In this document: in pieces, positions 32,000-38,057 of the stretch
How positions within the stretch are numbered: position 1 is the first letter of the stretch
Layout: each line of letters starts with the position of its first letter
Assembly: GCF_023101165.1 (NCBI RefSeq)
Contig: NZ_CP078076.1
Span: forward strand, 1,984,001-2,048,000
Length of the DNA: 64,000 bases
Source of the DNA: Microbacterium sufflavum
GTDB taxonomy: Bacteria; Actinomycetota; Actinomycetes; Actinomycetales; Microbacteriaceae
Direction of reading: 5' to 3'
Position numbers and translations under genes: made by a program
Notes under the pieces: model-generated
What the model was told of the DNA's origin: nothing
Databases searched by the model: none
What the model saw: only the letters and a program-made list of their open reading frames with translations

Positions 32000-33514
32000 A
32001 TGAGCCTCCCCGTGATCGACTTCGACGAGCGGTACCGCGCCATCAGTGCGCGCGACACCCGCTTCGACGGGCAGTTCGTGACCGCGGTCCGCTCGACCGG
32101 GATCTACTGCCGGCCGAGCTGCCCTGCCCGCACCCCGAAGCCGCAGAACGTCACGTTCTATCCCACGAGTGCGGCCGCGCATGAGGCCGGCTACCGCGCC
32201 TGCAAGCGCTGCCTGCCCGAGGCCGCACCGGGGTCGCCCGCGTGGGACGTGCGCGGAGACACGGCGGCGCGCGCCATGCGGCTGATCGCGACCGGGGTCG
32301 TGGAGCGTGAGGGCGTGCCGGGCCTCGCCGCCCGCCTGGGTTACTCCAGCCGGCACCTCACGCGGCTGCTGACGACCGAGCTCGGCGCGGGCCCGCTCGC
32401 GCTCGCCAGGGCGCACCGCGCGCACACGGCCCGCATGCTGCTCGTGGGCACGGACATGCCGGTGGCGGATGTGGCGTTCGCCGCGGGGTTCCAGAGCATC
32501 CGCCAGTGCAACGACACGATCCGCGAGGTGTTCGGCCTCACGCCGGGCGAGCTGCGGGCGCGGCGACGCACTCCGGCGTCCGACGTGCCGGGGGCGATCG
32601 ACCTGGCCCTGCCGTACCGCGGCCCGTTCGACGCGGCCGGGGTGTTCGCATGGATGGCGGCCAGGGCGGTCGCGGGGGTCGAGGAGGCGCGGTCCGACGC
32701 GTTCGCGCGCCACCTGCGCATGCCGGGCGGCCCCGCGTGGTTCGAGGTGCGGCAGGACGGCGAGCGGCTGCGGCTGCGGGCTCGCGTCGCACGCCTGAGC
32801 GACCTGGCGCCGCTGGTGTCGACCGCGCGGCGCCTGTTCGACCTCGACGCCGACCCCCTCGCGATCGACGAGGCCCTGGCCGCGCATCCGTCGCTGGCGG
32901 CGCTGGTCGCACGCACGCCGGGGATCCGGGTGCCCGGGGCCGCGGATCCGCACGAGATGCTGATCCGGGCGATGATCGGGCAGCAGATCACCGTCGTCGC
33001 CGCCCGCACCGCGCTCACCGCACTCACCGAGGCGCTGGGGGAGAGGACACCCGAGGGGCTGCTGTTCCCCACCATGACCGCGATCGCGGAGCACGGGGCC
33101 GAGGTGCTGCGGGGCCCCGCGGCCCGGATCCGCGCGGTCACGGGGGCCGCCGCGGCCCTCGCCGACGGCAGCCTGACGCTGACCGTGGGCGATGACGGCG
33201 CGGAGCAGCGCGCGGCCCTGCTGGCCATGCCGGGGATCGGACCGTGGACGGCGGACTACGTGCGGATGCGTGTGCTCGGCGACCCCGACATCCTGCTCCC
33301 CGGCGATGTCGCGCTGCGCGCGGGCGCGGCGGCGGTGGGACTCCCCGGCGAGCCGAAGCCCCTGGTCGCCTGGGCCGAGCGCACGGCCCCCTGGCGGAGC
33401 TACCTCAGCGCGCACCTGTGGCGTGCGGCACCCCAGCGCCCCGCGGGACCGCGGTCGCCTGCCGCCCGCGCGGCCGCGACCGACGACGAGACCCAGATGA
33501 AGGAGACGCCATGA
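32000..33514 (+). CDS. Ada-AlkA fusion: methylphosphotriester sensor, AraC-type regulator and 3-methyladenine glycosylase
   Basis: 504 residues. The N-terminal Ada zinc domain has C37 and C41 in [11 protein letters not shown] and C68, C71 in [10 protein letters not shown]37 would accept the methyl group from phosphotriesters. An AraC helix-turn-helix follows ([35 protein letters not shown]). From about residue 200 comes AlkA, with the helix-hairpin-helix [21 protein letters not shown] and the catalytic aspartate in LPGDVALR. It removes alkylated bases and probably activates its own operon. GTGGAGG precedes the ATG. The ogt gene overlaps its stop by ATGA. Confidence 0.95.
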
Positions 33515-34008
33515 CCGCCCTGATCCAGACCATCGACACCCCGGACGGCCCGTTCACGATCCTGGCCGACGCCGAGCAGCGCGTCCTCGCCTCCGGGTGG
33601 ACCGACGACGTGGAGGCGATCCTCGGTCGCCTCTCCGCCGCCGCCCGTCCGGAGGAGCTGCGCGACGCCGAGACCGACGCGGCGGCTGCCGCCCTGGCCT
33701 ATTACGCCGGTGACGTGTCGGCGATCGACGCCGTCGCGGTGAAGCAGACCGGAACCGCTCTCCAGCGCGCGGGGTGGGATGCGCTGCGCGGCATCGAGCC
33801 GGGTCGGCCGCTCACCTACACGGGCTTCGCCGCGCGCCTCGGCAATCCGAACGCGGTGCGCGCGGCGGCGTCGATCTGCGCCCGCAACGCCCCGGCCCTG
33901 TACGTCCCGTGCCATCGGGTGCTGCGCACCGACGGCTCGCTGGGCGGCTTCGCGTGGGGTCTCGCCGTGAAGCAGAGCCTCCTGGCCCGTGAGAGCGCCG
34001 CGCGCTGA
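33511..34008 (+). CDS. ogt: Methylated-DNA--protein-cysteine methyltransferase
   Basis: 165 residues starting in the ATGA overlap with the Ada-AlkA gene. The methyl-accepting cysteine is in [15 protein letters not shown] (about C134), with [22 protein letters not shown] for DNA binding. It is a suicide repair protein for O6-methylguanine. A Shine-Dalgarno AAGGAG precedes the ATG. A terminator follows at 34024-34048. Confidence 0.95.
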
Positions 34009-34023
34009 GCCGTCCGAAGCCCC

Positions 34024-34053
34024 GCCCCGTCTCCACGCAGGACGGGGCTTTCG
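34024..34053 (+). terminator. Terminator of the alkylation-repair operon
   Basis: GCCCCGTC pairs with GACGGGGC around a 9-base loop and is followed by TTTCGG. Confidence 0.75.
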
Positions 34054-34072
34054 GCTGCCGCGGGAATTCCTC

Positions 34073-34102
34073 TTGCGCCCAGCTGGTTCACAGGAATAGG
34101 CT
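34073..34102 (+). promoter_or_regulatory. Promoter of the ABC exporter leader
   Basis: TTGCGC (34073-34078) and TAGGCT (34097-34102) with an 18-base spacer. The start site would be near 34109, giving a leader of about 210 bases before the first ABC gene, unusually long for this genome. Confidence 0.65.
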
Positions 34103-34155
34103 GATGGGCTGTCGCGCCAACCGGACGACCTCGCCGAGCCCATGAGGAGGACACC

Positions 34156-34221
34156 ATGACCACGATCGCCGCCGCGCAGATCGCCACTCTCGGCTCGACC
34201 CCGGTGCGCCCGCTCTCCTAG
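34156..34221 (+). CDS. Leader peptide of the ABC exporter operon (21 residues)
   Basis: A 21-codon frame with an excellent ribosome site (GAGGAGG, 5-base spacing). It begins MTTIAAAQIATLG and ends TPVRPLS before TAG. It is too short for a folded protein and is followed by a hairpin (34245-34278), the arrangement of ribosome-mediated attenuation. The last codons (34208-34217, GCCCGCTCTC) are repeated exactly in the 3' half of that hairpin (34263-34272), so a stalled ribosome would change which copy can pair. A comparable leader, BmrB, controls the heterodimeric exporter BmrCD in Bacillus. Confidence 0.7.
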   Translation: MTTIAAAQIATLGSTPVRPLS

Positions 34222-34244
34222 AGCCGCCGCCCCCGTTCTGCACC

Positions 34245-34278
34245 GGATGCCGGGCTCCAGGAGCCCGCTCTCGCATCC
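34245..34278 (+). terminator. Attenuator-like hairpin before the ABC exporter genes
   Basis: GGATGC and GCATCC form the base; CGGGCTCC and GGAGCCCG form the apical stem; CTCTC bulges out. A pyrimidine-rich run with many T residues follows (34279-34300). It lies between the leader peptide and the first ABC gene. Confidence 0.65.
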
Positions 34279-34320
34279 GTCCCTCTTCCTCTTCGTTTCG
34301 CCTCGACTCCTCTGAGAGAC

Positions 34321-36246
34321 ATGTCTTCCTCGTCTTCCGCGCACAATCCGTCGTCCACCCTGTCCACCCCCGCCGCGCTGTGGCGGCTCAAGCCCTTCGT
34401 GAGGCCGGTCGTCTGGCGTCTCGCCGGAGGGGCCGCGAGCGCTCTCGCCGCCGCTCTCATCGCGTTGATGATCCCGATCGTGCTCGAGCAGATCATCGGC
34501 GGACCGGTCCGCTCCGGTCACATCGATGCGATCGTGTGGGGCGCGGCCGCCGTGTTCGCCCTGGCCCTCGGCGAGGCGCTCATGGTGTGGCTCCGCCGTC
34601 AGTTCGTGCTGTTCCCCGCCACGCAGGTCGAGTACACGATGCGCACGGAGCTGTACTCGCGGCTGCAGACGCTGCCGGTCGCGTTCCATGACCGCTGGCA
34701 GTCGGGTCAGCTGCTGAGCCGCATGATGCAGGACATCGGTCTCATCCGCCGCTGGCTCGCGTTCGGCCTCGTGCTGCTCGTGGTCAACGTGCTCACGATC
34801 ATCATCGGCTCGGTGCTGCTGTTCCGCTGGCACTGGCTGCTGGGCACGATCTTCCTGGTGACCGCGATCCCGCTGTGGATCCGCGGCTACCTGTTCGAGA
34901 AGCGCTACGGCGCCCTCACCCGCCGCAGTCAGGACCAGGCGGGCGACCTCGCCACGAGCGTCGAGGAGAGCGTGCACGGCATCCGCGTGCTGAAGGCGTT
35001 CGGCCGCGGCAAGCACGCCCTGCGTCGCTTCAGCCGTCAGGCGGAGACGCTGCGCGAGACCGAGATGAGCAAGGCCGGCGCGATCGCGTCCATCTGGTTC
35101 TGGCTCGACCTGATGCCGCAGATCGCGTTCGGCCTGAGCCTGATGTCGGGCATCTGGCTGATCTCGCAGGGCGCGATCACCGAGGCCGAGCTGTTCGCCT
35201 TCTTCGCGATGGCCGTGGTGCTGCGCTGGCCCATCGAGTCGATCGGCTTCCTGTTCTCGTTCATGCTCGACGCCCGCACGGCGACCGACCGCGTGTTCGA
35301 GATCTTCTCCGAGACCAACACCATCACGGACCCGGAGCACCCGGTGCACATCGACGAGCCGCGGGGCGAGCTCGCGTTCGAGAGCGCGCACTTCCGCTAC
35401 CAGGACGCGGGTGCCGACGAGCGCGACCTGCTCGACGGCATCGACCTCGTGCTGCGGCCCGGCGAGACCATGGCGCTCGTCGGCCTGACCGGAAGCGGCA
35501 AGACCACGCTCACGACGCTCCCCACGCGGCTGTACGACGTGACGGGCGGACGGGTCACTCTCGACGGCGTCGATGTGCGCGACCTGCCGCTTGCGGAGCT
35601 GCGTCGGCACATCGCGATGGCGTTCGAGGACGCGACGCTGTTCTCGGCGTCGGTGCGGGAGAACGTGCTGCTCGGACGCGCCGACCTCGACATGCACAGC
35701 GACGAGGGGGAGCGCGTGCTGCGCGAGGCCCTCGACGTCGCCCAGGCGTCGTTCGTCGACACGCTGCCGGAGGGGGTCGAGACGGTGATCGGCGAGGAGG
35801 GCCTGAGCTTGTCCGGCGGGCAGCGGCAGCGTCTAGCGCTCGCGCGTGCCGTCGCCGCCGCGCCCAAGGTCCTCGTGCTCGACGACCCGCTGTCGGCGCT
35901 CGACGTCGACACCGAGGCCCTGGTGGAGGAGGCCCTGCGGCACGTGCTGGCCGACACCACGGCGCTGATCGTGGCGCACCGCCCGTCGACGGTCGCCCTG
36001 GCCGACCGGGTCGCGCTGCTGGAGGCCGGCAGGGTCACCGCGGTCGGCACGCACGCGGAGCTGCTGAAGACCAGCCGCCACTACCGTCACGTCATCTCGA
36101 GCCTGGAGGCCGAGGAGGCGGCGCGCACCGGCGCGATCCCGGTCATCCGCGACACCGAGGCGGAGATCCACGATGCGGTGCAGGACGGCCTCCGGGAGGA
36201 CGCCGCCGACGACGATCTGATGAGCGAGAAGGAGGTGCAGCGATGA
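34321..36246 (+). CDS. Heterodimeric ABC exporter, subunit with degenerate ATP site
   Basis: 641 residues: six membrane helices in the first 320, then a nucleotide-binding domain. Walker A is GLTGSGKTT (about 390-398) and the signature is LSGGQ (about 496). Walker B reads VLVLDDP: the catalytic glutamate is replaced by aspartate (about D521), the hallmark of the non-catalytic site in exporters such as TM287/288 and BmrCD. The second subunit overlaps by ATGA. The C-terminal 60 residues are acidic. The substrate is probably a drug or other hydrophobic compound. The ribosome site is weak, so expression may depend on the leader. Confidence 0.92.
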
Positions 36247-38057
36247 GCTCTACGCTCACCGGCACCCAGGACGAGGACCGTTCCCGCCTGACCCGCGAGG
36301 AGAGCAGGGCGATCCGCAAGCGGTCGCTGCGACTGCTCGGCTCGCTCGTGCGGCCGCTCAAGCCGCAGATCGTGCTCGCCGCGGTGGTGCTCGTGATCTC
36401 GACGGCGCTGCAGGTCGCCGGTCCGATCCTGATCAGCATCGGGCTCGACCGTGCACTGCCGGCCGTGATCGAGAACGCCGACTGGATGCCGACGTTCGTG
36501 GTGGGCGGGATCTACCTGCTGGCCGGTGCGCTCGCGGCCGCCCTGATCGCCTGGTACGTGATCATCGCGGCGAAGCTGACGCAGGCGATCCTGCTCGATC
36601 TGCGCAAGCGCATCTTCCTGCACACCCAGCGGCTGAGCCTGGAGTTCCACGAGTCGTACACCTCGGGGCGCATCATCTCGCGACAGACGAGCGACCTCGA
36701 CTCGATCAGGGAGCTGCTGGACGGCGGCCTGAATGAGCTCGTGTCGGGCGTGCTGTTCGGCCTGTTCACCTTCATCGCGCTGTGCGTGTGGGACTGGCAG
36801 TCCGGCCTCATCCTCGCGCTCGGCGGGGTGCCGCTGTTCTTCCTGATGCGCTGGTTCTACTCGCGCTCGCAGCTGGTGTACCGCGAGTCGCGCGTGATCA
36901 GCGCCAAGGTCATCGTGCAGTTCGTGGAGACCATGACCGGCATCCGCGCGGTGAAGGCGTTCCGCAAGGAGCCGCGCAACGACGAGGCGTTCCAGCAGGT
37001 CGCCGGCGACTACCGCGACGTGAACCGCCGCTCGATGCTGCTGTTCGGCACGTTCGAGCCGGGGCTCATGGGCGTCGCGGCTCTGGTGCTCGGGATCGTC
37101 GTGCTGTGGGGCGGCATCCGGGTGTCGACGGGGGCCCTCACGGTCGGCGTGCTGCTGTCCGCCGTGCTGTATGTGCGCAACTTCTTCGCGCCGATGCAGG
37201 AGATCGCGATGTTCCTGAACTCCTACCAGTCCGCGACCGCGGCGCTGGAGAAGGTGTCCGGCGTGCTCGAGGAGGTGCCGACGGTGCCCGACCCCGAGAA
37301 GCCGGTGGACCTGTGGGAGTCGCGCGGACACGTCGAGTTCGACGAGGTCACGTTCGGGTACAACGGCGAGAAGACGATCCTCCCGAACTTCTCGCTCGAC
37401 ATCCCGGCCGGGCAGACGATCGCCCTCGTGGGGACGACCGGTGCGGGCAAGTCGACGCTGGCCAAGCTCGTCTCGCGCTTCTACGACCCCTCGGAGGGTC
37501 GGGTGACCCTCGACGGCGTCGACCTGCGCTCGCTGCACCCGAAGGACCTCCGTCGTGCGATCGTGATGGTCACGCAGGAGGCGTACCTGTTCAGCGGGAC
37601 GGTCGCGGACAACATCGCCCTGGGCAAGCCGGACGCCTCGCTCGACGAGATCAAGGCCGCCGCCCGCGCGGTGGGCGCCGACGGCTTCATCTCGGCGCTG
37701 CCCGACGGCTACAACACCGACGTGAACAAGCGCGGTGGGCGCGTCTCGGCGGGGCAGCGACAGCTGATCTCGTTCTCGCGCGCCTTCCTCGCCGACCCGG
37801 CGGTGCTCATCCTCGACGAGGCCACCGCCTCGCTCGACATCCCGTCGGAGCGGCTGATCCAGGACGCGCTGCAGACGCTGCTCGCTGACCGGACGGCGAT
37901 CATCATCGCGCATCGGCTGTCGACGGTCGCGATCGCCGACCGGGTGCTCGTGATGGAGCACGGCCGCATCATCGAGGACGACACCCCGGAGGCGCTCATC
38001 GGCGGCTCCGGCAAGTTCGCGCAGCTGCACGCCGCGTGGCAGGAGACGCTCGTCTGA
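36243..38057 (+). CDS. Heterodimeric ABC exporter, subunit with canonical Walker B
   Basis: 604 residues starting in the ATGA overlap. Six helices are followed by a nucleotide-binding domain with GTTGAGKST (about 396-404), signature SAGQRQ and [12 protein letters not shown], with the catalytic glutamate at about E525. The signature VSAGQ departs from LSGGQ, which is common in the asymmetric partner. Together with the upstream subunit it forms one canonical and one degenerate ATP site. A terminator follows at 38075-38108. Confidence 0.93.

Follow-up and report, generated by a model that had tools for sequence, protein, structure and literature searches.

Genes and features at the locus

The window, by which we mean the whole stretch of 64,000 nucleotides analysed here, is part of a Microbacterium chromosome: the host genome is a single contig of 3.57 Mb (G000) and its nearest named relatives are Microbacterium. 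Near the middle of the window lie the two genes of an ABC exporter, and ahead of them we read a short leader ORF with a ribosome site, a start motif, a covarying hairpin, a C-rich gap and threonine-rich codons. A preliminary description of this DNA had reported a promoter-like pair, a 21-codon frame, a strong ribosome site, a hairpin and the exporter genes, and each was found where it had been placed. The features are as follows.

34073 to 34102, + strand: promoter-like pair, TTGCGC (34073 to 34078, −35-like), an 18-nt spacer and TAGGCT (34097 to 34102, −10-like); below the threshold of the sigma-70 scan
34097 to 34111, + strand: −10/transcription-start motif TAnnCTGnWnGGCTG, from a genome scan and recurrence at orthologues
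34111 to 34129, + strand: P1, candidate hairpin at the transcript's 5′ end (GTCG..CGAC), with a longer stem in some clades; from a clade stem test
34135 to 34140, + strand: CGAGCC, first strand (a) of candidate helix P2, immediately 5′ of the leader ribosome site; from a clade stem test
34144 to 34150, + strand: leader Shine-Dalgarno sequence GAGGAGG, its AGGAGG columns invariant or nearly so in a 47-sequence alignment
34156 to 34221, + strand: leader ORF MTTIAAAQIATLGSTPVRPLS, 21 codons, ATG at 34156 and TAG at 34219 to 34221, with codons 2–8 in a Thr-rich zone found family-wide
34192 to 34197, + strand: GGCTCG, second strand (b) of candidate helix P2, leader nt 37–42 in codons 13–14; from a clade stem test and codon choice
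34222 to 34320, + strand: leader–exporter gap, C-rich, G-poor and rut-like by base composition (C minus G = 0.21)
34244 to 34279, + strand: conserved hairpin of 7+7 bp with a 5-nt bulge, a candidate weak terminator; stability z −3.5, covariation
34321 to 36246, + strand: ABC exporter subunit A, degenerate catalytic site VLVLDD (its partner has VLILDE)
36243 to 38057, + strand: ABC exporter subunit B, overlapping A as ATGA; VLILDE

In subunit A an Asp (VLVLDD) replaces the expected catalytic Glu, while subunit B keeps the usual VLILDE. Two half-transporters with one degenerate catalytic site are the arrangement of heterodimeric type-IV ABC exporters of the TM287/288 and BmrCD kind. Sequence matches in the PDB included TM_0288 and the YheI subunit of BmrCD, with eukaryotic ABCB proteins scoring highest, and the 25 NCBIfam families listed for each subunit were all general exporter families, every one below its cut-off. 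On its sequence the exporter is heterodimeric and of the drug type, a level of comparison that assigns it no substrate.

The gene upstream, from 33511 to 34008, is ogt-like by eye. Directly after it a hairpin ending in TTT (34017 to 34056) separates it from the exporter operon, and the exporter is therefore probably transcribed on its own. The gene 5′ of the leader varied by lineage, and leader and exporter remained together (by eye). Five Rfam matches fell within 33500–34800, all under their gathering scores, so no family was assigned; among the matches listed from the open-access literature on leader control of exporters in this group, none reported this locus.

A leader ORF accompanies the exporter in many genera

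We counted as a leader any ATG ORF of 15–45 codons with a Shine-Dalgarno sequence that lay at least 30 nt before the exporter and within 300 nt of it. The Microbacterium set comprised 80 named loci, almost every one carrying a Microbacterium label, and 30 others of the genus; two were too short and 108 were tested, near-duplicates included, with 88 distinct leader regions among them. A leader was present at 102 of these 108 loci, compared with 8 of 122 control upstream regions of G000, whose genes were called in that one genome by a simple composition rule. Among the six misses, one (L073) has a leader whose ribosome site is weaker and another (L076) was masked. Of 69 family loci, 42 had a leader within 300 nt and 54 within 420 nt. 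The larger count takes in at least L113, where the frame is the final part of the gene upstream; at both L113 and L143 all that is seen is the tail of a PurH-like frame. Of 20 orthologues in sister families of the order, 2 had an ATG ORF of leader size, which is the chance level. Six relatives (L067, L075, L097, L107, L137 and L143) have the promoter region yet no leader. As judged from these sequence comparisons, the leader ORF occurs more often than chance predicts and travels with the operon in many genera of the family.

The peptides themselves were almost wholly different between genera, and no peptide was shared. We compared 35 Microbacterium leaders, chosen by Ile4 and Gly13-Ser14, and among 93 single-base codon differences between nearest neighbours 25 were synonymous. 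Because this share is close to the neutral expectation of 0.31, no clear conservation at the amino-acid level was apparent within the genus. What appears to be conserved is the ORF with its ribosome site, and not the peptide. In all 35 distinct leaders, codons 4 and 9 (ATC after G, spanning 34165 to 34183) make two copies of GATC 15 nt apart that could pair as a small inner hairpin; Ile4 was a selection criterion and Ile9 was not.

For composition and pairing we used 52 representatives: 14 from the Microbacterium set (13 Microbacterium clades or labels plus L109, a Leucobacter) and 38 family loci, leaving aside 13 loci judged redundant or without a real leader and those without a usable ATG leader. 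Since these are not one per genus, the main counts were repeated on 31 loci, one from each genus. Two leaders of 11–12 codons (L139 and L169) are in the C-minus-G counts (n = 52) and out of the threonine, P1/P2 family and one-per-genus analyses.

The gap between leader and exporter is C-rich

The exporter ATG (34321) lies 99 nt past the leader stop, so leader and exporter do not overlap. RNA that is rich in C and poor in G attracts Rho. C minus G in the gap exceeded 0 in all 52 representatives, exceeded 0.1 in 47 and was at least 0.2 in 21, whereas among 122 control stretches it exceeded 0.1 in 19 and was at least 0.2 in two. With one locus per genus the three counts were 31, 28 and 10 of 31. 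When the first exporter codons were included, the maximal 78-nt window reached 0.2 in 48 of 52 representatives; 19 of 122 control regions reached it, as did 5 of 45 stretches lying upstream at these same loci (0.111). Ten of 20 sister-family orthologues also reached 0.2, at most two of those with a candidate leader, so part of the C-richness probably belongs to the start of the gene.

The gap together with the first exporter codons might thus load Rho, with a paused leader ribosome altering how accessible the gap, or the exporter's weak ribosome site, is. Two features keep Rho in play as an alternative: the tail of the hairpin has no U-tract, and all 52 representatives have a G-poor gap; a rho gene is present in the genome, and the excess over controls, both in the gap (47/52 against 19/122) and in the maximal window (48/52 against 19/122), points the same way. 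Precedents appear in excerpts on the actinobacterial cys leaders (PMC1262725), where a polyY gap following leader ORFs is put forward in what the authors call a weak prediction, and on the Escherichia coli topAI uORF (PMC12121999). The ten leader-poor sister-family orthologues that also reach 0.2 weigh against this reading, which we hold tentatively, at somewhat worse than even odds.

Early leader codons are enriched for threonine

Threonine made up 28.2% of codons 2–10 in 50 leaders compared with 10.3% in 87 control N-termini (P = 3 × 10−15), a signal noticed after viewing the peptides and set against controls from one genome. With one leader for each of 31 genera the shares were 31.2% and 10.3% (P = 1.4 × 10−14). 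At least two Thr fell within codons 2–10 in 39 of 50 leaders and 20 of 85 controls, or in 28 of 31 and 21 of 87 with one leader per genus. Codon by codon from 2 to 8 the share was 42, 40, 42, 32, 22, 22 and 28%, and it dropped to 10.3% at codons 9–14 and 4.0% at codons 15–20. The ACA codon occurred 32 times in leaders and 5 times in controls, and the bias was confined to the leader frame, being absent from the other two. Ile was raised 2.0-fold in the early codons (P = 0.002), and Arg, Leu and Asp were lowered. The window's own leader carries Thr at codons 2, 3 and 11.

Some of this signal could reflect A-rich codons that aid initiation: A formed 27% of bases in the early codons versus 18% in controls. 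Equally A-rich codons rose less than those for Thr (Lys 1.9-fold, P = 0.05; Asn 1.3-fold, P = 0.45). We also considered drug arrest at Ala, of the chloramphenicol and linezolid type, in which Ala is the strongest site and Ser and Thr are weaker according to passages of PMC8987054; Ala was up merely 1.25-fold (P = 0.15) and this candidate was rejected.

A ribosome slowed on the Thr-rich leader would probably switch the pump on. A stricter version is that the Thr codons near the start, with the rare ACA frequent among them, report on the charging of threonyl-tRNA, so that starvation or a synthetase inhibitor would induce the exporter. The size and frame-specificity of the Thr and ACA excess, its persistence with one leader per genus, and a Thr zone that stops close to the start of P2 strand b in the window all speak for it. 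As in thr-type attenuators, the leader is enriched for one amino acid across the family; the genes behind it are those of an ABC exporter and not genes that make or charge threonine. Against it, codons 2–10 lack Thr altogether in two of the 50 leaders, Ile is enriched as well, initiation also benefits from A-rich early codons, the controls come from one genome, and the exporter is drug-type and not a known Thr carrier. We consider control by threonyl-tRNA charging unlikely. Borrelidin and obafluorin are types of natural threonyl-tRNA synthetase inhibitor, and the further proposal, that a drug-type exporter of Microbacteriaceae stands under a leader sensing threonyl-tRNA shortage and is induced by such inhibitors, which it may expel, seems slightly less likely again.

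The hairpin covaries, but not with the leader

The conserved hairpin starts 22 nt past the leader stop and is followed by a pyrimidine-rich tail. With its tail it was 3.5 standard deviations more stable than shuffled sequences, while the leader region as a whole was ordinary (z = −0.83). Of the 29 distinct hairpins we aligned 24, omitting five whose length differed. In this alignment 98.5% of cells were paired; four pairs had changed on both sides compared with 1.5 in shuffles, and nine cells were doubly changed compared with 1.9. These comparisons argue that the hairpin is under selection. The preliminary description had drawn it with a pyrimidine- and T-rich tail. The tail is indeed rich in C and T, but it contains no U-tract, and the terminator scan found no intrinsic terminator between leader and exporter.

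The same description saw a leader-attenuator of the BmrB kind, in which a drug-stalled ribosome lets the final codons of the leader pair with the hairpin's 5′ arm, so that transcription reads through. The basis for this was a ten-base repeat, and GCCCGCTCTC does occur at 34208 to 34217 and again at 34263 to 34272, but these ten bases are present twice only in the window's own genome and one of the same species (L001 and L002). Leader and post-leader repeats of 10 nt, whatever their sequence, were found in 9 of 50 close loci, L001 and L002 included. The check that the description had proposed, covariation in orthologues, came out positive for the hairpin and negative for the leader and arm partner bases: the wobble base of codon 18 did not covary with the arm base (Fisher P = 1.0 for C/T, 0.73 for all). 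The repeat as a conserved antiterminator was rejected on these grounds.

Longer pairing between leader and arm fared no better. L001 allows a duplex of −24.1 kcal/mol, and leader:arm duplexes averaged −21.2 kcal/mol compared with −20.0 for synonymous recodings of the leader (mean z −0.40), with 1 of 41 loci at P ≤ 0.05 in a set that includes L087, whose hairpin is of another kind. In this GC-rich RNA any leader pairs with any arm. When a ribosome-sized mask was placed at each codon the window's hairpin stayed formed throughout (0.81–0.99), and in ten loci so masked it held in most, with L040 the exception and L021 falling to 0.58. In a cotranscriptional test with the 3′ arm unmade (21 loci), pairing of the arm to upstream RNA fell with a ribosome at the stop codon, by 0.133, hardly more than the 0.092 (s.d. 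0.162) of recoded leaders. These folding and pairing tests have limited power and were run with no known attenuator as a positive control; with the covariation analysis, they gave no sign of a mutually exclusive antiterminator involving the leader. The longer pairing, equal to that of recoded leaders and without a switch in the window's RNA under masks, was therefore rejected, and the claim that the leader end pairs with CGGGC of the 5′ arm as a switch is likewise unsupported. A BmrB-like intrinsic attenuator keeps the repeat and pairing in the window, the drawable duplex and a selected hairpin on its side; given the restricted repeat, the lack of covariation, the absence of any gain over recoding and of an equilibrium switch, we regard it as improbable. 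What stands of the original proposal is a leader, ribosome site and hairpin tied to the operon.

Equally improbable in our judgement is that the leader encodes a real small protein or is a mere translation enhancer and not a sensor: the strong ribosome site and, for an enhancer, the near-neutral substitution would suit this, against which stand the want of a peptide common to genera, the 99 nt between leader stop and exporter start, and the conserved hairpin between the two.

Candidate helices P1 and P2

In a per-clade stem test P1 reached a combined Fisher P of 0.0016 over 13 clades, 4 of which fell below 0.05. Its swap test gave P = 0.0008 with 50 representatives and P = 0.17 with one locus per genus, and because significance was lost in this way, P1 is a clade-level feature at best. 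The stem test for P2, in a window selected after reading the sequences, gave P = 6 × 10−5 over 14 clade representatives (3 of 14 below 0.05), compared with P = 0.93 in a control window; across the family P2 was not significant (P = 0.2 to 0.7). Codons 13–14, GGC and TCG, had no synonymous variants in the 35 distinct leaders, where only the choice of codon is informative because Gly13-Ser14 had been a selection criterion.

The swap test for P2 gave 1 of 5000. Relatedness inflates z in swap scans with both signs (−4.4 to +4.2 window by window), so these scans are not proof and the P2 swap result is weak; for P2 the shuffle-based clade test is the better one. RNAalifold returned only two pairs on the MAFFT alignment, because clades were misaligned in it. 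On these sequence tests we regard both P2 and P1 as moderately supported candidates.

A positional reading of leader translation

Our preferred reading, to which we give a probability of about 0.5, is that the locus is a ribosome-sensing attenuator that reads progress through about the first eight leader codons. The sequences point to a real regulatory leader, bound to this operon, in many Microbacteriaceae, and the general idea of the preliminary description is plausible. We infer that leader translation controls the exporter; which way it does so, by which terminator, through what refolding and under what stress are put forward below in the same spirit.

Transcription would start near 34108 and a ribosome would load at the strong leader site. 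If that ribosome reached the stop codon freely, or if none loaded, most transcripts would end or go unused between leader and exporter, with termination through the hairpin (in Microbacterium), through Rho acting on the C-rich gap, or both. A ribosome footprint usually extends about 15 nt ahead. A ribosome paused within approximately codons 1–8 would separate the strands of P2 and leave the second strand (leader nt 37–42) uncovered; the 5′ RNA would then refold and the exporter be expressed. Because a ribosome at codons 1–8 would part P2 with strand b free, early pausing seems the most natural ON signal. Arrest would be read by its position, through pausing at the start or early codons caused by a translation inhibitor or a tRNA shortage, and not through one arrest peptide; we propose this because the leader peptides share nothing beyond their early threonines. 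Start-codon stalling by several drugs induces uORF-controlled genes, as passages of PMC12121999 describe. Shortage of threonyl-tRNA as the inducing stress is the boldest possibility.

Comparison with known leader systems

Firmicutes supply the best-described cases of resistance genes under leader control, and the actinobacterial hub of translation stress is WhiB7. An AT-hook is the motif used to recognise WhiB7. The genome has two WhiB-family genes; by eye an AT-hook is absent from both, so nothing placed the operon in a WhiB7 regulon and a WhiB7 route here is unlikely. The whiB7 uORF of actinobacteria, as presented in excerpts of PMC12121999, senses several translation inhibitors and controls a transcription factor; no WhiB7 was seen in this genome.

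One close likeness is to bmrCD of Bacillus subtilis, where translation of the BmrB leader is needed for antibiotic induction and where, as here, a translatable leader ORF and stem-loops precede a heterodimeric ABC drug exporter (parts of PMC4191407). The same parts describe BmrB as a 53-residue ORF with the terminator within the coding region, whereas this leader has 21 codons and a hairpin without a U-tract 22 nt after its stop. Akin too is the toiL uORF of topAI-yjhQP in Escherichia coli, at which stalling is read at several positions with Rho acting downstream; in topAI, pairing across the ribosome site keeps the gene off, and here no such pairing stood out (sections of PMC12121999). The actinobacterial cys leader peptides combine, as our locus does, a leader ORF lacking an obvious terminator with a candidate Rho-binding gap, but have Cys runs near the stop and biosynthetic genes where ours has Thr near the start and an exporter (PMC1262725, in part).

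A further comparison is with an amino-acid attenuator. The thr operon leader of Escherichia coli has dense Thr and Ile codons before a biosynthetic operon. The present leaders are likewise rich in Thr and Ile, but have fewer such codons, at codons 2–8, and precede an exporter.

New in these sequences, as far as they can be read, are Thr-rich early codons despite near-total divergence of the peptides between genera, and a start motif that recurs upstream. A family that keeps the place of the leader, its ribosome site, a C-rich gap and early Thr, and not the leader sequence, would represent a separate solution to the problem that those systems answer. Both the Thr-rich early codons and the C-rich gap merit testing, and the Thr bias opens a direct test of which stress the pump answers. 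If the threonyl-tRNA reading were true, attenuation in the style of amino-acid operons would be in use for drug resistance.

The promoter region and start motif

Strict promoter and terminator scans gave no match for either. TTGCG and TAnnCT were nonetheless seen by eye upstream of many orthologues. The motif TAnnCTGnWnGGCTG matched twice in the 3.57-Mb genome, once at this locus, and its backward-read pattern matched once. In the form TAnnCTGnWnGGCT it was present upstream in 97 of 108 loci of the Microbacterium set, in 43 of 69 family loci and in 1 of 20 sister-family orthologues (L220).

Across 60 family genomes, the matches listed for the A-form of the motif included 53, in 38 genomes (26 of these with a single match), compared with 33 matches, counted by hand, for the backward-read A-form in the same genomes. 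Twenty-four of the 53 listed matches sat 41–521 nt from listed exporter starts. Thus, the motif often marks the operon, yet given these figures it is a weak signature alone and not specific.

The motif was also present at several loci that have no leader (L067, L097, L107, L137 and L143), and it includes what would be the first transcribed bases, GGCTG. L075, from Microbacterium commune, has no leader ORF and retains a variant start motif and the hairpin CGGATGCCACGGCATCCG; it is a natural leaderless counterpart of L073, which has a leader. Upstream of the leader in L115 we noticed, at this locus only, an operator-like dyad, CAGCCCTTCAG..CTGAAGGGCTG, across the −10/start region. The second match of the motif in the host genome (L183, G000:C1:3368595-3368609) lies, by eye, upstream of smpB, a gene of ribosome rescue.
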